Assembly (NCBI GenBank): GCA_025782395.1
Contig: JALGZD010000056.1
Location: 1 to 54,117, forward strand
DNA: 54,117 nt
Source: a bacterium
Lineage (GTDB): Bacteria > Joyebacterota > Joyebacteria > Joyebacterales > Joyebacteraceae
Direction of reading: 5' to 3'
Positions 14,742 to 23,872 of this stretch are shown here, one piece after another. A model generated the notes under the pieces. The model was given only the letters and a program-made list of their open reading frames with translations, searched no databases and was not told the origin of the DNA. Both the position numbers and the translations under genes were made by a program. The stretch's first letter is position 1. Each line of letters starts with the position of its first letter.

Positions 14742-14748
14742 GCTACAT

Positions 14749-14784
14749 CAGGCAGGGGCCTCTCGATCTCCGAGCCCCTGCCTG
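14749..14784 (+). terminator. Inter-tRNA hairpin
   Basis: CAGGCAGGGGC (14749-14759) pairs perfectly with GCCCCTGCCTG (14774-14784) across a 14-base loop. It sits between tRNA-Gly and tRNA-Cys and lacks a T tract, so it may be a processing or transcript-spacing element rather than a true terminator. Confidence 0.4.
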
Positions 14785-14793
14785 TCCAAGTCA

Positions 14794-14869
14794 GGCGGCG
14801 TAGCCAAGTGGCTAAGGCAGAGGATTGCAAATCCTCGATTCCCCGGTTCGAATCCGGGCGCCGCCTCCA
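14794..14869 (+). tRNA. tRNA-Cys (GCA)
   Basis: The 76-base cloverleaf has acceptor GGCGGCG pairing with CGCCGCC, anticodon stem AGGAT/ATCCT with anticodon GCA, T arm CCCCGGTTCGAATCCGGGC and an encoded CCA. It is second in the Gly-Cys-Leu cluster. The 87-base gap to the next tRNA contains only a weak GACAGG/CCTGTC inverted repeat. Confidence 0.96.
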
Positions 14870-14956
14870 GCTGCAGCATCGGCCGGTGGCCTTGGTCTCG
14901 CGAGGAGCCCGACAGGCTGCGCCGCCATCCTGTCGAGAGGCTCTCTTGCATCCCGT

Positions 14957-15047
14957 GCCGGGGTGGCGAAACTGGTAGACGCATCGGACTTAAAATCCGC
15001 TGGGGCGTTCTCGCCCCGTGCCGGTTCGATTCCGGCCCCCGGCACCA
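14957..15047 (+). tRNA. tRNA-Leu (TAA)
   Basis: The 91-base class II tRNA has acceptor GCCGGGG pairing with CCCCGGC, the leucine-type D arm GGCGAAACTGGTAGACGC, anticodon TAA in the loop CTTAAAA and a long GC-rich variable arm (GGGGCG...CGCCCC). The T arm is GCCGGTTCGATTCCGGC and CCA is encoded. It ends the three-tRNA cluster; no strong terminator follows. Confidence 0.96.
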
Positions 15048-15122
15048 TCCTCCGACATTCATGCCTCAAGAGATCCAACGCAGATTCACCTTCGTTCGAT
15101 TGCTACGGTACAACCATCACTG

Positions 15123-15162: not shown

Positions 15163-15236
15163 GCTTGGCATGAGCTGTGTCACGGATGGTACGGTCCGGG
15201 CTTCTGGCCGGGACAAAGGGTAAGGAGCAGCCGATT

Positions 15237-17360
15237 ATGTTGCGCTCGTGCATCATGGAGGGGGAGCAGTGGTGGAGTCTGCCGGGTTGGGTGAGTGCCG
15301 TTGCTGCAGTGTTGGTGGTGCTTGTTCTGACGATGCCGGCGCCCTGCGAAACTGCCTGCTACCCGCGGCTGGGCAACATTTACTTCCCGGATCTGGGCTC
15401 GGCGGATCTGGAGCTTCTAGCACGGTGGGACCTCCTGGTCTTGCCCAAGCGAGCAAACGATGAGTGTCTTGATGAGCTCGCGATGCTGAGAGCCCTGAAT
15501 CCGGATATCCAGTTGATCGCTCACATGCCTGTGGGCTACCACGGCGAGTGGCTCTCGCCGCCGATCAACGGTGATCTTGTCGGCGAGCTCTACGCGAACG
15601 ACTGGTGGCTGAAGGACGTGACGGGCGCGAGGGTGTTCCTGCCGTGCGGAGCCAGCCTTCTGAACGAGAGCATCTGGGCGCCGACCAACGGAGAAGGGAA
15701 GATGCTCTGCGAATGGATGGCCGAGTACATCCACGAGCGACTCGGTCCGGGCGGGCCGTGGGACGGTGTCTTCCTGGACTACTGCATGGATAATATCCAC
15801 TGGGCCGGCAATGTCCACGGGAGTCCGGTGGACGCCGACGGCGACGGGATAGCGGATGACGCATCCGAACTGAACGCAGCGTGGAGAGCGGGCACGGAAC
15901 TCCTTGTCTCTCGATTGAGGGAACTCGTCGGGGACGACTTCACTGTGACTACCAACGGGAACAACACATTCTATGCCGATTGCAACGGGTCCACACGCGA
16001 GAACTTCCCGCAGATGCACGGCGATTGGTATGAGAACATCAGGAACCCTGAATGGGGATACATCACGATCTCATCTCTCTACCAGGGTCCGATTGTCTCT
16101 ACTGTCAACGTGATGTGGGGAGGAGCCGTCGTTGAAGGTGAACTCGTGCGCGACGATGCGTTCGAGAGGAAATTCGGTTTCACCTACGCCAGCACGTTGG
16201 TCTTCGGAGACGGTTACTTTTCCTTTGATGGTGGCGAAGGGTTGCCGGAGCATTCGCAGGCATGGTGGCACGAGCTCTACGACCTGGAGCTGGGGGAAGC
16301 ACGAGGGGGACGGGAGCGGGCGGACGTCAGTATCGAAGGCGTCGAACGCTGGGAGATGGTAAGCCTCCGGCGCTTTGAGAACGGCGTCGCCGTTGTCAAT
16401 CCCACAACCGTGACTGAGACCGTGGCTCTTGGAGGAACTTACTTCCCCAGGAAGTCGTTCAATGGCGACTTCTACCCGCACGCCGGTGCGACCACGAGCA
16501 TCGATCTTGAACAATGGTCCGGGGACGTCATCGTCGGGAGTGGAAAGGTGCTCTCGTGGGCGCCGGACGTACAGACTGCGGTGAACGAATCAGGCAATGT
16601 CGAGCTGATCTGGCGCGCGGTCGGAGGCGCCACCGGATACTCGGTCTACCGTTCACACAGACCGGACGGTTTCAGCAGCCCTGCAGCTCTCATCGCTGTG
16701 ACGGGCGGATCCGGATATGTGGACACTACTGCAACTCCGGGTCGAACGTATTTCTACAGGATTGCGCCGATCGACGAATGGAACTGCGAAGGGCTGCCGT
16801 CGAGGAATGTCTCCATCGTTACGCCTCCGAGGCGAGGCGGTGGGGAGCATTCTGAGAGCGGTGGTGCTGACAGCGTGCCGGACATGTCGGACGGGATGGA
16901 TGGATCGCTGGAGAGTCACCAGGACGTCTGTGCTGTGACTGTCGACGGGACGGCGGAGCCGTTCCGGGGACCGCCGAGGGAAGCGGGCGGGCGAGTGGAG
17001 AGCGTGTTGAGCCTCCATGGCAGCCACCCGAACCCCACGAGCCGGATGACGTCCATCTCGTTCGACATCACAAGCTCCGGGAGTGCCGGGTTCCGTGGAG
17101 CGAGCGTTGCCGGCTCCGGCGAGAACGGGCCGGAATCGTCGAGAGATGTCTCTGGTGGCGCAGTCACTCTGACCGTCTACGACATCACCGGGCGAGTGGT
17201 GAAACGGCTTCTGGACAGCACACTGACGCCGGGCAGCCACGTTGTCACCTGGGACACTCGAAGCGATAGCGGGGAGCGGGTTGCCTCGGGATGCTACCTC
17301 TATGTCTTGACCTGCAAGGAAGAGAGGCTGACCGGCAAGATCGTCGTACTCGCATCGTGA
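15237..17360 (+). CDS. Secreted putative glycoside hydrolase with Fn3-like and FlgD-like C-terminal modules
   Basis: A 707-residue exported protein. ATG 15237 follows AAGGAG by 9 bases and gives a hydrophobic signal segment near residues 20-40. The large N-terminal domain has [48 protein letters not shown] and TNGNNTFY, then HGDWYENI. This pattern resembles hypothetical TIM-barrel hydrolases such as GHL15, with acidic residues on strand ends. An Fn3-like domain ([10 protein letters not shown]...[10 protein letters not shown]) precedes a low-complexity linker and a FlgD-like or sorting-type end ([24 protein letters not shown]). A close paralogue follows at 17589. Substrate unknown. The family assignment is from memory and needs a profile search; secretion is well supported. 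Confidence 0.7.
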
Positions 17361-17588: not shown

Positions 17589-19670
17589 ATGACGAGCTCG
17601 GCGATGAGATGCGAGACGCACGGGGGAGCGCAGCGGCTGCTCATGTTGTGGGGCGTGGGTGTAGTGGTCGCAGTGCTGGTATTGGGATGGGCGCAGACTG
17701 CGGTGGGTGACGTGTCATATCCACGGCTGGCGAACATCTACTTCCCGACTCTGATCGGCGCGGATCTGGAGAAGCTGGCTCGCTACGACGTGCTGGTTCT
17801 GGCGAAGCGTGGTGAGGAATGGTACAGAGATGAGCTTGCTGAACTGAGGGAACTGAACCCCGAGATCATTCTGCTGGTTCATATGCCGGTGGGGTACGCC
17901 GGGGATTGGGAAACGCCTTCGATAAACGGGGATATGCGGGACAAGCTCTTTGAGGACGACTGGTGGCTGAGGGATCAGGGCGGGGATCGCGTGCTGCTCC
18001 CTTTCAGCAACTGCGGTGACTATCTGTTGAATGTGTCAAGGATGTGTCCTGAGAACTCGCGCGGACAGATGCTGTGCGACTGGCTGCCGAAATTCATCGC
18101 GGACCGGCTCGGCCCGGGGGGGTTGTGGGATGGTGTCTACCTCGACTACTGCCTGGACAATATCAGCTGGGTGAACGGATCGCTCGTGAGACCGATCGAT
18201 GCGGACAGGAACGGCGCTGGTGATGTCCCATCGGAGCTGGACGCAGCGTGGAGAGCCGGGATGGAACGCGTGGTGTCGCGACTGCGCGGGTTCGTAGGGC
18301 CGGACTACATCATCATGACGAACGGCAACAACACGTTGTACGAAAGCTGCGATGGATCGACGCGTGAGGACTTCCCAAATATGCACGGTGACTGGTACGA
18401 GAACATCACCAACACTGAGCACGGCTACCAGGCGATTCAGTCGAACTACCGTCGCCCATCCATCAACGTAATTAATGCGATCTATCATGGCCCGGCCGAC
18501 CCCGAGGGGGAGATGCCGGGTGATCCCTCGGCGGAGCAAAAGCTACGCTTTACGCTCGCCAGCACACTGGTGTACGGCAACGGGTACTTCTCGTTTGACG
18601 GAGGAGCGGGACTCCCGGATCATTGCCAGATGTGGTGGAGTGAACTGTATGAACTTGATCTTGGCGAATCATTGGGGAGGGCGGAGGATGTGGCCGTCTA
18701 TCCCGGCGCGGTGGCATGGGTCGAACATCCAGAGATGATCCGGCTGAGAAGGTTCTCGAGGGGGCTCGCGGTCGTCAACCCCACCATCTGCTCCCAGAGC
18801 GTACAGCTTGGTGGCATCTACTACCCGGCCGATGGATTCAACGGGCGCTTCTACCCGTTCGAGACGAGCGAGGCGCAGGCCGATCTGAAGTACTACTCCG
18901 GGGAGATCTACATAGGGAACGGTCGTGTGCTCGCGGGCGTGCCGTTGATCGAGTGCGAACTTCTCGAAGACGGCGGTGTGCGTCTCGTCTGGGACGAGGT
19001 TCACGGCGCCATGGAGTATAGTGTCTACCGGTCGATCGCGCGAGGCGGTAGCCCCGGGGCAGAAGAGCTCATTGCCGTGGTCAATGATCCAACGTACTAC
19101 CAGAGCGTGGATGGGAGTCGCGGTGACTGCACGTATCGCGTGGCACCGATAGACGAATTCGGATGTGAAGGTCGGCTGTCCGCTCGGGTCGCGGCAACAG
19201 CAGACTCTTTTGGCGACCTGTCTGTGTTGACAATGGCTGATTGGCCGGACGGGCAGCCTGATCTTCCGTGGCACGAACCGGGCAAGCTGGTCGTCCAGGC
19301 AACGGCGATGGGTGGTAGCCGCGCGCCTGAGCAGAGGAATCCCGGAATCCCGGGGTCAGTCGGTGCTGATGCAATCGTATCGACGCTTCGCGGCTGCACG
19401 CCGAATCCGGTGCGCGACGAGGCGATGATCTCGTTTGTCGTCGGCGACCATAACCGCTGCAAGAGGCCGCAGCACGTAATGCTTAGCATCTACACGGCAG
19501 CTGGACGGCGCGTCTCACAAGTTCTGGACGCCGAACTGCGTCCGGGGGAACACTCAGTTGTGTGGAACAGGCGGACCAGCTCTGGGGCGCGGGCTCCGGC
19601 GGGGTGCTACCTCTACGCGTTGACGGTCGCCGGCAGCGTGATGAACGGCAAAATGGTGCTGCTGCACTGA
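17589..19670 (+). CDS. Secreted putative glycoside hydrolase, paralogue of the preceding gene
   Basis: A 693-residue exported protein with a signal segment near residues 16-36 and the same modules as its upstream neighbour. It shares YPRLANIYFP, LLVHMPVGYAGDW, DDWWLRDQ, LGPGGLWDGVYLDYCLDN, TNGNNTLY and MHGDWYENI. It then has an Fn3-like segment (AMEYSVYRSI...CTYRVAPIDEFGCEG) and a FlgD-like end (SIYTAAGRRV, GARAPAGCYLYALTV, NGKMVLL). The conserved DYC-x-DN and DWYEN motifs are the best catalytic candidates. ATG follows GGAGG by about 11 bases. Each copy has its own sigma54-type promoter, so separate control of a duplicated activity is likely. Function unproven. Confidence 0.7.
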   Translation: MTSSAMRCETHGGAQRLLMLWGVGVVVAVLVLGWAQTAVGDVSYPRLANIYFPTLIGADLEKLARYDVLVLAKRGEEWYRDELAELRELNPEIILLVHMPVGYAGDWETPSINGDMRDKLFEDDWWLRDQGGDRVLLPFSNCGDYLLNVSRMCPENSRGQMLCDWLPKFIADRLGPGGLWDGVYLDYCLDNISWVNGSLVRPIDADRNGAGDVPSELDAAWRAGMERVVSRLRGFVGPDYIIMTNGNNTLYESCDGSTREDFPNMHGDWYENITNTEHGYQAIQSNYRRPSINVINAIYHGPADPEGEMPGDPSAEQKLRFTLASTLVYGNGYFSFDGGAGLPDHCQMWWSELYELDLGESLGRAEDVAVYPGAVAWVEHPEMIRLRRFSRGLAVVNPTICSQSVQLGGIYYPADGFNGRFYPFETSEAQADLKYYSGEIYIGNGRVLAGVPLIECELLEDGGVRLVWDEVHGAMEYSVYRSIARGGSPGAEELIAVVNDPTYYQSVDGSRGDCTYRVAPIDEFGCEGRLSARVAATADSFGDLSVLTMADWPDGQPDLPWHEPGKLVVQATAMGGSRAPEQRNPGIPGSVGADAIVSTLRGCTPNPVRDEAMISFVVGDHNRCKRPQHVMLSIYTAAGRRVSQVLDAELRPGEHSVVWNRRTSSGARAPAGCYLYALTVAGSVMNGKMVLLH

Positions 19671-19842: not shown

Positions 19843-20448
19843 ATGAATGTCGTTGATATCGTCATAGGAGTGATTCTCCTTATTGGGTTGGTGTCGGGGC
19901 TCGCCCGCGGATTCACCCGAACACTCTTCGGACTGGCGGCGCTTGTTCTTGGCATCGTCGCTGCCGGGAGAGCCTTCGCGTACGTGGCGAAGAACGTGCT
20001 CTTCTTCCTTCCCGGCGAGCGGGTATCTGAGGTAGCAGGTTTCGTCCTGATCTTTCTGATCGTCTTCTTCGCGATTGTTCTTATCGGTCGCCTGATTGCC
20101 AAGGCGCTGAAACTGGCCTTGCTCGGAGGGCTGGATCGACTGGCCGGGGGTCTGCTCGGTCTCATCATGGCGTCTGTGTGGACGGGGGTATTTCTTCTTC
20201 TCGCCGTCATGGGCGGATTCCACGAGGGACGAGCGCTCGTGAGTTCGAAGCTTGCACCGCAGGTCTTCGGCATTACTGATGCGATAGTAACGGTGATTCC
20301 AGAAGACGTCCGGAGCAGCTTCGACGAGAACTACAAGCGTCTGAGGGACGACTGGGAGAAGGCGAAGGTGCGGAAGAGGACGCGTCTCGCATTGATGGAA
20401 GCAGCACCCGGCAATCTGAGCTGCGGCAGTGAGATCGTCGCGACGTAG
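19843..20448 (+). CDS. CvpA-family inner-membrane protein
   Basis: A 201-residue protein with four hydrophobic segments near residues 4-22, 26-45, 62-83 and 100-122, and a charged cytoplasmic tail, as in the CvpA/colicin V production family. The opening NVVDIVIGVILLIGLVSGLARGF and later GLDRLAGGLLGLIMA are family hallmarks. CvpA proteins are needed for colicin V export in E. coli, and homologues elsewhere are linked to envelope stress; a molecular activity is not established. Its promoter and an upstream terminator make it the first gene of a unit with the Clp-like gene 28 bases downstream. Confidence 0.88.
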   Translation: MNVVDIVIGVILLIGLVSGLARGFTRTLFGLAALVLGIVAAGRAFAYVAKNVLFFLPGERVSEVAGFVLIFLIVFFAIVLIGRLIAKALKLALLGGLDRLAGGLLGLIMASVWTGVFLLLAVMGGFHEGRALVSSKLAPQVFGITDAIVTVIPEDVRSSFDENYKRLRDDWEKAKVRKRTRLALMEAAPGNLSCGSEIVAT

Positions 20449-20476: not shown

Positions 20477-22408
20477 ATGGCGGACGAGTCCGAGCGGAAT
20501 CCCGTGCGAGACGGCACCGGCGAGCCGACTGGTGAAGCTGCAGTTCTGAATGCGGAGCCGGAGAACACGTCGTCCGCGCCTTCGGACGACGGCGATCGTG
20601 CAGAGCCCGGTGCCGGGGCTGAGGCTGATGTTCTTGGCCGGCTGGGCGTGGACATCACGGAGATAGCTCTGGTTCAGGGCGCCCCGGACCTTGACCTGTG
20701 GACTGACGAGATATCGCGTGTCAAGGCGGTGCTCGAGAAACGTGAGCGCCATGCGGCAATGCTCGTGGGTCCCCACGGTGTCGGGAAGCGCGGACTGGTG
20801 TTTTCCCTGGCGCTGCAGATAATCGCCGGCGACGCTCCGCCGCATGTCGCAGGCCGCCGGATCATCGAGCTTCCGTTCCACCGCATCCTGGCGAACGTAC
20901 GTCAGCCCGGCGATTTCGAGCGGTTGGTGTTCACGGCGATGCGACAGGCGGCCTCGCGCGAGAACATCATCCTTCTCATGAACAACTTCCCGGCCTTCTT
21001 GGGCGTGAGCGGCGGCTCGAAAGCACTCTTCGACGCATCCTATGCTGTGGAGATGGCATGCCAGCAGCCGGGGCTCTATCTGCTCGGTGCGGCGACACCC
21101 GTTCTCTACAAGGCGGCTCTGAACAAGCTGCCGTGGCTGGAGCACGCATTTTCAACTGTTTCGATCTCTGAACGAAAGCGCGGTGCCGTCCTTGCGCTCC
21201 TGAGTAAGGTGGCCGAGATCCTGGCTGAGTACCACGGCATCACGATCGGTGATGAAGCTATCGCGTCGGCCGTGGACCTCTCCGGGTACTACGTCAAAGA
21301 AAGAGTCCTCCCCGGCAAAGCCATGGAACTGCTCGATGAAGCGGCAGCCGAGGCGGTCTCTTCTGCTCCGCGAGATGCGGAACGCCCATGTCTGGAAGCT
21401 TCGCATGTTGCCGCCGCGCTTTCACACTGGATCGGCATCCCGCCCGACAAGCTGGCCGGAGCAGTGAACCACGAGCTCCTGGAGCTCGGAGATTCGTTGA
21501 TGAAGCGAGTCAAGGGGCAAGACTACTGCATCAGGAAGCTCGCCGACGTCATCCGCGTTTCAAGGCTCGGCCTGAACGCGAATCCTCAGAGACCGGACGG
21601 TGTTTTTCTGTTCGTGGGGCCGTCCGGGGTCGGCAAGAGTGAACTCGCGCGGGCGTTAGCGGAGGAGCTCTACGGTTCGTCGACGCGGCTTTTCGAGTTC
21701 AATATGACGAGCTACAGCGACGATGACGGTCTGGCGCGGCTGGTTGGCCTGCAGCTTGGTGAGCTGAACCACCCCGGCGATCTCACGACTGCCATCGAGC
21801 GCTATCCGCACTCCGTAATCGTGTTTGAGCAGATCGAGCGTGCGCACCGCGACGTTGCCGTGATGCTGATGCGGGCATTCCGGGATGGGTGTATCATCGA
21901 CAGCAGTGGCGAAGAGGTCTGTTTCTCGAACACTGTCATGATCATGACGTCGAATTCGGAGAACCTGATACCGGAGATAGAGGAGAACGGGGCAGTTGGA
22001 TTCGGGACGGCACCTCGCGGACGCAGCGATGAGCGGTATTCCAGAGAGGTTCGAGAGGCCATAGAGGAGTTCTTCCCGGCCGAGTTCATGGACGGCGTAG
22101 ACGAAGTTCTGATCTTCGATCCATTGAGCGATGCCGCGCTGCGCGATATCGTTCAGATTCATCTTGATGACATCGCCGCGCGGCTTGCCGAGCGATCGGT
22201 AGCACTCGAGGTGACCGACGAAGCGGTCGCCATGATTGTGGAGAAGGGGCACAGCAGGGAATACGGTGCGAGAAACCTCGGCCGAACCGTTGAGGGTCTG
22301 GTCCTGAGGCCCGTAGCTCGGTTTCTGCTGGGTAACCCCGACGCCGCGATCGTGAGACTCCACGTTGTCGAAGGCGACATCGAAGTGAGCGTGGGCGCCG
22401 ACGCGTAG
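20477..22408 (+). CDS. Catalytically degenerate ClpA/ClpB-like AAA+ protein
   Basis: A 643-residue protein with two tandem Clp-type AAA+ modules and no N-terminal Clp-N or coiled middle domain. Module 1 has a Walker A-like GPHGVGKR (K104) ending in Arg, and IILLMNNF (N169-N170) where Walker B Asp-Glu should be. Module 2 keeps Walker A GPSGVGKS (K387), sensor 1 TSNS and sensor 2 YGARNLGR, but Walker B reads FEQIERAH (E451-Q452 in place of D-E). The arginine-finger segment reads EFMDGVDE, with G540 in place of Arg. Both aromatic pore loops are also lost. ATG follows GGAGGT by 6 bases. It may bind nucleotide without turning it over, perhaps as a scaffold or regulator; partners are unknown. Confidence 0.85.
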   Translation: MADESERNPVRDGTGEPTGEAAVLNAEPENTSSAPSDDGDRAEPGAGAEADVLGRLGVDITEIALVQGAPDLDLWTDEISRVKAVLEKRERHAAMLVGPHGVGKRGLVFSLALQIIAGDAPPHVAGRRIIELPFHRILANVRQPGDFERLVFTAMRQAASRENIILLMNNFPAFLGVSGGSKALFDASYAVEMACQQPGLYLLGAATPVLYKAALNKLPWLEHAFSTVSISERKRGAVLALLSKVAEILAEYHGITIGDEAIASAVDLSGYYVKERVLPGKAMELLDEAAAEAVSSAPRDAERPCLEASHVAAALSHWIGIPPDKLAGAVNHELLELGDSLMKRVKGQDYCIRKLADVIRVSRLGLNANPQRPDGVFLFVGPSGVGKSELARALAEELYGSSTRLFEFNMTSYSDDDGLARLVGLQLGELNHPGDLTTAIERYPHSVIVFEQIERAHRDVAVMLMRAFRDGCIIDSSGEEVCFSNTVMIMTSNSENLIPEIEENGAVGFGTAPRGRSDERYSREVREAIEEFFPAEFMDGVDEVLIFDPLSDAALRDIVQIHLDDIAARLAERSVALEVTDEAVAMIVEKGHSREYGARNLGRTVEGLVLRPVARFLLGNPDAAIVRLHVVEGDIEVSVGADA

Positions 22409-22432: not shown

Positions 22433-23872
22433 TTGAAGATGCTGATAGGCGGCCGGAGTGTGACGTGCGACCTGCCTACCGAGGTGGTGAATCCCTACGA
22501 CGGTTCGGTGATCGACACCGTTCCCTCGGCGGGAGAGGAAGAAGTGCGGCAGGCGATCACTGTGGCCGAGGCGGGCGCCGAGACAATGAGACTGCTTCCG
22601 CGCGTGGAGCGCTCCGCCATCCTCAATCGGACGGCTGGTGGTCTCGAGTCCGACTGCGATGATCTCGCGCAGCTCCTTGCGGCGGAAGTCGGAAAAACAC
22701 TGCGTGAAGCGCGCGGCGAGGTGGCCCGGGCTGTTCAGACATTCACCCTTGCGGCTGAAGAGGCGCGGAGGCTTGCCGGCGAGATCGTTCCCTTTGACGG
22801 AGCCCCGACCGGCGTCGGCCGCTTCGGGTTCTACCTGCGTGTACCACTGGGAATCGTCGTTGCCATTACCCCGTTCAACTTCCCGCTCAATCTGGCCGCT
22901 CATAAGGTGGCGCCGGCGATAGCCGGTGGGAACGCCGTCATCCTCAAGCCGGCGTCTGCGACCCCGCTGACTGATATCAGGCTGGGGGAGATTCTCCTTG
23001 AAGCGGGTCTGCCTCCGGAGGCACTGAGCGTCGTGACTGGGTCCGGCTCCGTCGTGGGAGACCTCCTCGTGAGGGACCCCCGTCCGCGGATGGTGACCTT
23101 CACCGGGAGCGCCGAGGTCGGCAGGCGGATCATGTCGAGTGCGGGACTCAAGAAAACGGCAATGGAACTCGGCTCCAACTCGGCCGTCATTGTGGCTGCA
23201 GATGCCGATGTGGAAGAGGCTGCGGAGCGGTCAATGCTGGGAGCGTTCGCGCTCGCCGGCCAGGTCTGCATCTCGGTACAGAGAGTTATCGTGGCCCGGA
23301 ATGTGTTCGACAGATTCATGGAGCGAGCCGTGGAGGTCGCCGCGGATCTGAAGGTCGGGGACCAGCTGGCTGAGGGCACTGACATCGGTCCCATGATCAA
23401 TGAGGCTGAGGCCCAGCGCGCGGAGACCTGGATCAAGGCAGCGGTTGCGGACGGAGCCGATCTCGTTACCGGTGGCGAACGTACCGGCACGCTCATGACT
23501 CCGGCCGTGCTCACTGGGGTGGCCGAGGAGGCAAGAATCTGGAAGGACGAGGCCTTCGCGCCGGTGGTCTCGGTGCGGGCCTACCGTGACCTGGATGAAG
23601 CGATAGGGCTTGTCAACCGCTCCCAGTACGGGTTGCAGGCCGGCATCTACACGCACGACCTGGATGAAGCGCTGAGGGCGGCTCACGAGATCAGGTGCGG
23701 TGGTGTGATGATCAACGATGTGCCCACATTCAGAGTGGATCTCATGCCGTATGGGGGGGAGAAGGGGAGCGGTACGGGTCGAGAGGGCCCGAAGTATGCC
23801 ATCGAGGAGATGACGGAGATCCGGACGATCGGTATCAGGCGCGGGCTGCGGCCCCGGAGTGAGCAGAGCTAG
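22433..23872 (+). CDS. NAD(P)-dependent aldehyde dehydrogenase
   Basis: A 479-residue member of the aldehyde dehydrogenase superfamily oxidising an aldehyde to an acid. The catalytic cysteine is C279 in AGQVCISVQR, the general base is E245 in AMELGSN, and the cofactor fold carries ITPFNFPLNLAAHKVAPA and ILKPASATPL. The pattern is closest, from memory, to lactaldehyde or non-phosphorylating glyceraldehyde-3-phosphate dehydrogenases. It starts at TTG with GGGAGGT upstream, 24 bases after the Clp-like gene, so it is probably in the same transcript. The substrate cannot be read from sequence. Confidence 0.9.
   Translation: MKMLIGGRSVTCDLPTEVVNPYDGSVIDTVPSAGEEEVRQAITVAEAGAETMRLLPRVERSAILNRTAGGLESDCDDLAQLLAAEVGKTLREARGEVARAVQTFTLAAEEARRLAGEIVPFDGAPTGVGRFGFYLRVPLGIVVAITPFNFPLNLAAHKVAPAIAGGNAVILKPASATPLTDIRLGEILLEAGLPPEALSVVTGSGSVVGDLLVRDPRPRMVTFTGSAEVGRRIMSSAGLKKTAMELGSNSAVIVAADADVEEAAERSMLGAFALAGQVCISVQRVIVARNVFDRFMERAVEVAADLKVGDQLAEGTDIGPMINEAEAQRAETWIKAAVADGADLVTGGERTGTLMTPAVLTGVAEEARIWKDEAFAPVVSVRAYRDLDEAIGLVNRSQYGLQAGIYTHDLDEALRAAHEIRCGGVMINDVPTFRVDLMPYGGEKGSGTGREGPKYAIEEMTEIRTIGIRRGLRPRSEQS

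Follow-up and report, generated by a model that had tools for sequence, protein, structure and literature searches.

Control of ClpP normally falls to active AAA+ rings, which unfold proteins and feed them to this protease. The closest described relatives of the protein discussed here are partners of ClpP of this kind, ClpC and ClpA. It is encoded by a gene, termed pseudo-clp, in a bacterial DNA stretch of 54,117 nucleotides (contig JALGZD010000056.1; the window, meaning this whole stretch), from a phylum titled Candidatus Eisenbacteria at NCBI (phylum A). Pseudo-Clp shares with ClpC and ClpA the order of the two AAA+ modules, a small D2 domain, P-loops, and a Phi-G-F loop between sensor 1 and the arginine finger, but it lacks the N- and M-domains, Walker B motifs, arginine fingers, and pore aromatics, so that neither hydrolysis nor threading would be expected of it.

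More distant parallels are found among proteins in which the Clp fold has been modified or reused. In plants, the SMXL/D53 proteins are Clp derivatives turned to a regulatory role; the N- and M-domains are present in these proteins together with an EAR motif, but the IGF/L motif is not (PMC9133912). ClpI of the Actinomycetota, an additional Clp class recently recognized and defined by sequence, carries an LGF loop in its subclass Ia but keeps the features required for ATP hydrolysis (PMC10149685). The torsin activators LAP1 and LULL1 use a degenerate AAA+ domain to act upon another Clp-like system; LAP1, however, has no nucleotide-binding motifs and supplies a strictly conserved Arg (PMC4358337), the reverse of pseudo-Clp, in which the P-loops are kept and the finger residues lost. 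ClpR proteins, catalytically inactive ClpP paralogs, are inactive members of the Clp system on its protease side, whereas pseudo-Clp lies on the unfoldase side. A literature search for dead Clp partners of ClpP found no described counterpart. As far as the searched literature goes, a dead motor joined to a kept docking loop would be a new combination, because the known atypical Clp proteins, the plant SMXLs, are without the IGF/L motif.

Judged from its residues, pseudo-Clp probably caps or otherwise regulates ClpP without a motor of its own. It is found throughout the sampled genomes of phylum A (20 genomes of one family and eight genera) and in a second phylum (phylum B; family code f99).

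Identity and Domain Organization

The pseudo-clp reading frame (20477–22408; on the forward strand, as are its parts and the two genes that flank it) is translated without interruption into 643 residues from an ATG start, with an alternative in-frame GTG at 20429. The protein is certainly homologous to the class I Clp/Hsp100 proteins and contains two Clp-type AAA+ modules and a D2-small domain. Pfam matches include AAA_2 (7.9e-29), ClpB_D2-small (5.4e-18), and AAA_lid_9 (1.4e-14), and phmmer aligns it over its full length with ClpB and ClpC at 1e-90 to 1e-95. Identity to the ClpC and ClpB proteins of the same genome is 37–39% in module 2 and ~30% in module 1. The NCBIfam ClpB, ClpA, and TssH models align over the full length or most of it, with scores far under their cut-offs, the best being ClpB at 355.8 bits against a cut-off of 1232. 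Foldseek searches with the predicted model returned ClpC chains as best matches, many of them taken from ClpC-ClpP complexes; these agree well domain by domain, with a whole-chain template modeling score of ~0.4 that reflects a different placement of the domains relative to each other.

Residues 1–50 (20477–20626) form an acidic, variable N-terminus that is predicted to be disordered (predicted local distance difference test, pLDDT, <50 for residues 1–48) and is not a Clp N-domain; no Clp_N match was present among the 25 Pfam families listed for the protein. Comparison with the intact ClpB of the same genome revealed no M-domain insertion. Pseudo-Clp has neither the Clp_N domain nor the equivalog-level NCBIfam score by which ClpC is assigned, and neither the long M-domain nor the absence of a ClpP loop that characterizes the ClpB/Hsp104 disaggregases.

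Loss of the ATPase and Threading Motifs

Motifs were assigned by alignment with the intact ClpC (contig C67) and ClpB (contig C50) of the same genome. The module 1 P-loop, GPHGVGKR (20768–20791), keeps Lys104, while the Mg-coordinating Thr that should follow is replaced. This position, residue 105 (20789–20791), is Arg in every homolog of both phyla save for Gln in three, an unusual fixed change that may reflect Mg-independent nucleotide binding or none. The pore-loop region (20894–20926) has lost its aromatic residue (RQPG versus KYRG), the Walker B region (20969–20998) reads LLMNNF, with MNN for IDE, and the arginine-finger region (21128–21160) contains LEHAF in place of LERRF. The RR pair is broken in all homologs, although one Arg remains in the sister species (LERAF); the original prediction, made from the window alone, that module 1 has no arginine fingers therefore holds for this protein but not entirely for its relatives.

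The P-loop of module 2, GPSGVGKS (21617–21640), is intact; its Lys387 is invariant across homologs, as is Lys104 in module 1. The GYVG pore loop is gone (GELN; 21746–21784), and the Walker B segment SVIVFEQIE (21812–21838) has lost the catalytic Glu (FEQIER versus FDEIEK). Gly540 (22094–22096) replaces the arginine finger, the Arg of FLNR. Every phylum A ortholog that covers module 2 lacks the catalytic Glu and has Gly at the finger position, where phylum B has Ser or Ala. Module 2 retains sensor 1 Asn493 and sensor 2 Arg599, the sensor 2 GAR motif (22265–22273) being kept in phylum A and partly lost in phylum B. The acidic Walker B residue (Glu or Asp) is present in phylum A, and erosion is deeper in phylum B, with Asn or Ser at the Walker B Asp position in some members and the sensor 2 Arg gone in most.

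Residue-by-residue comparison with the genome's own ClpC and ClpB bears out the original description of two crippled Clp modules, including a module 1 Walker A ending in Arg, NN for DE, an intact module 2 Walker A accompanied by E-Q for D-E and Gly540, and the disappearance of both pore aromatics. The analogy that it drew with the laboratory Glu-to-Gln substrate trap does not generalize: the catalytic position is Gln, His, Ala, or Asn in phylum A and Gly in phylum B, and Gln is typical only of the window genus and one neighboring genus. We also rejected a reading in which Glu451 serves as the catalytic Glu through a shift in frame or alignment, since members reading FDHIER and FDAIER fix the register. 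The features of an active Clp unfoldase, namely the Walker B Glu, arginine fingers, and aromatic pore loops (KYRG and GYVG), are absent from the pseudo-Clp sequence. At the level of sequence, it is established that canonical hydrolysis and the threading aromatics have been lost, that the P-loops and the ClpP tripeptide have been retained, and that this state has been under long-term selection.

The Putative ClpP-Docking Loop

Module 2 has a flexible loop (residues 499–520; 21971–22036; pLDDT <50) that follows sensor 1 and precedes the finger. It aligns with GGIGF of the genome's own ClpC, at the place where ClpC carries its ClpP-docking loop. Within it, Val507-Gly508-Phe509 (21995–22003) forms a Phi-G-F docking tripeptide that is identical in all 19 aligned sequences from both phyla. 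VGF is the sole invariant run across residues 479–532, and the remaining positions of 497–520 average 40% identity. The corresponding tripeptide is IGF in the genome's ClpC, and its ClpB has a short loop without one. It is through such loops that ClpA, ClpC, and ClpX attach to ClpP. An LGF-type loop is a mark of ClpP partners that discriminates ClpC from ClpB, in which it is absent (PMC10149685). ClpC of Staphylococcus aureus docks through a Phi-GF loop, and mutation of its AGF abolishes ClpP binding (PMC12521514); VGF itself is common among the docking tripeptides that occur in nature (PMC8745299). For this protein, originally suggested to be a scaffold, sensor, or poison subunit, the invariance of the VGF loop points toward ClpP as partner. 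Because this loop is present, and absent from ClpB, the protein is better described as pseudo-ClpC-type than by the earlier label of ClpB-like, which was assigned with the VGF unnoticed.

Conservation and Origin

Strong matches to pseudo-Clp were found in 19 of the 20 phylum A genomes, and the remaining genome, which is 57% complete, contains a fragment that stops at a contig edge. A profile search over 386 genomes revealed a second group, in phylum B, with proteins of 610–630 residues and 35–37% identity. Orthologs were present in six of the seven phylum B genomes sampled, the other being 82% complete, and all six are dead at the same sites, with Gly at the catalytic position and Ser or Ala at the finger. 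A second profile search, centered on phylum B, yielded no further dead group. In a tree built with all motif columns removed, 20 pseudo-Clps formed one clade against 23 intact Clps with support of 100/100, which leaves convergent, independent losses unsupported.

The ratio of nonsynonymous to synonymous substitution rates (dN/dS) within the genus is 0.09–0.13, and pseudo-Clp is an already dead form under purifying selection. A decaying copy, which intact homologs were originally expected to reveal, is rejected by the presence of the gene across 20/20 phylum A genomes, the dN/dS of ~0.1, and the ortholog in a second phylum. The alignment, the orthologs of phylum B, the tree, and dN/dS together provide good support for the suggestion that a dead Clp has become naturally fixed; that it binds nucleotide is predicted from its P-loops. 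The closest outside relatives (G043, G072, and others) were considered as additional dead members and rejected, as the motifs were intact in all those inspected; an apparent TAG at the G043 locus is merely the end of the open reading frame (ORF). The tree places an unusual, long but intact Clp-like protein of ~1080 residues from another phylum (G072:C4:217818-219560) nearest to the pseudo-Clps (95/85).

Clp Proteins of the Two Phyla

Intact ClpB and ClpC are encoded elsewhere in the window genome. An intact double-AAA Clp partner accompanies pseudo-Clp in 20/20 phylum A genomes, and complete sets consist of exactly ClpB, ClpC, and pseudo-Clp. A single bona fide clpP gene (C128:31684-32292) is present in the window genome; its Ser, His, and Asp motifs look intact. 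The usual order is tig-clpP-clpX-lon; here it is tig-clpP-lon, with clpX missing. A model search of the 20 phylum A genomes found no ClpX, and the same model gave matches in controls. ClpX is retained in phylum B. ClpC and pseudo-Clp seem to be the only candidates left as Clp-type partners of ClpP in phylum A. The notion that pseudo-Clp compensates for loss of ClpX is unsupported, as phylum B has both.

Proposed Role and Alternative Explanations

We give about an even chance to the reading that pseudo-Clp is a pseudo-ClpC, a ClpA/ClpC-type double AAA+ protein that has lost hydrolysis and threading, docks on ClpP via VGF, and regulates it. Somewhat more tentatively, it can be proposed that this natural ATPase-dead paralog, fixed in two phyla, constitutes a "pseudo-unfoldase" arm of the Clp system, a VGF-docked regulator of ClpP that acts without unfolding. 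Pseudo-ClpC has a single origin, which would date to the split of the two phyla or earlier; it would have lost ATP hydrolysis and substrate threading while keeping its nucleotide-binding loops and docking tripeptide. It would assemble, probably with nucleotide bound, as a ring or as a subunit, on its own or together with ClpC, and VGF would insert into the hydrophobic pockets of ClpP. Regulation of ClpP, rather than feeding of substrates, would be expected because the protein should be unable to unfold or thread; the protein could cap the barrel, open the gate to let peptides in, or compete with ClpC or dilute it.

Several considerations weigh against this proposal. That the protein binds nucleotide, forms rings, docks on ClpP, and regulates it in one direction or the other is inferred, and the VGF tripeptide can persist to serve a protein other than ClpP. 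Known partners of ClpP have AAA+ rings that rely on the cycling of ATP, so a dead ring may dock poorly. No simple replacement logic applies, because ClpX was lost in phylum A and kept in phylum B. Finally, the genes that neighbor pseudo-clp, at the phylum A loci and at three phylum B loci, point to no link with ClpP.

One alternative, which we consider unlikely though deserving of some weight, is a ClpP-independent scaffold switched by nucleotide in the manner of the plant SMXLs; the VGF loop would then be bound by a protein other than ClpP. The invariant P-loop lysines of both modules are consistent with such a switch, SMXLs provide a precedent for atypical Clp proteins reused in signaling (PMC9133912), and SMAX1 is among the sequence matches in the PDB. 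The IGF/L motif, however, is absent from SMXLs (PMC9133912), yet it is the best-conserved part of the otherwise variable loop in pseudo-Clp.

The main rival, likewise unlikely, is that pseudo-Clp joins active ClpC in hetero-hexamers that are tuned, or poisoned as by dominant-negative Walker B mutants. Mutation of the two Walker B Glu residues in a plastid ClpC1 gives mixed, jammed complexes (PMC7966870), and every phylum A genome could supply an intact double-AAA Clp for such rings. Against this, the modest identity to ClpC in each module and the missing N- and M-domains make compatibility of the interfaces doubtful, and Gly at the finger position would silence the site of the neighboring subunit as well.

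A functional partnership with the neighboring CvpA or aldehyde dehydrogenase, in an envelope or metabolic role, is very improbable. A cvpA-like membrane protein gene (19843–20448) ends 28 nucleotides before the pseudo-clp ATG, as originally noted. An aldehyde dehydrogenase-like gene (22433–23872), identified by eye, begins 24 nucleotides downstream. These short gaps and the persistence of the arrangement wherever phylum A contigs reach would suit a partnership. The same contigs, however, keep the entire order galT, glgA, tRNAs, glycoside-hydrolase-like gene(s), cvpA, pseudo-clp, aldehyde dehydrogenase, infC, rplT, pheS, pheT, zapA, rarA (several names were assigned by eye from sequence), and cvpA adjacency consequently carries little information. 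At the three phylum B loci inspected, neither gene adjoins pseudo-clp. The adjacency of cvpA, originally named as a point to check, thus holds in phylum A, as part of a syntenic block, and fails at these phylum B loci, which leaves the suggested tie to CvpA weak.

Least probable of all is continued ATPase activity through substitute catalytic residues, for which the module 2 P-loop, both sensors, and the acidic Walker B residue kept in phylum A might be cited, but the Glu and Arg finger are gone in all members with no fixed replacement and losses are greater in phylum B.

Other features of the block were observed. Two tandem, related genes (15177–17360 and 17589–19670) encode secreted glycoside-hydrolase-like proteins with a C-terminal sorting-type domain; there are two copies in the window genus and G008 and apparently one in the other phylum A genera. 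An ORF at 14748–15062 on the reverse strand is antisense to the tRNA cluster (tRNA-Cys, tRNA-Leu) and is probably no gene; ORFs of this kind are often misannotated as proteins.

Implications for ClpP Regulation

The setting in phylum A is one in which ClpX is also missing, so that ClpP is seemingly limited to ClpC and pseudo-Clp as Clp-type partners. If the proposed docking and regulation are correct, a dedicated dead ring with an intact docking loop would have persisted for as long as the two phyla have existed, and evolution would be able to separate the regulatory from the motor functions of Clp unfoldases. Pseudo-Clp would then also provide a natural tool for the effects of docking alone on ClpP, including gate opening, competition, and the formation of mixed rings.
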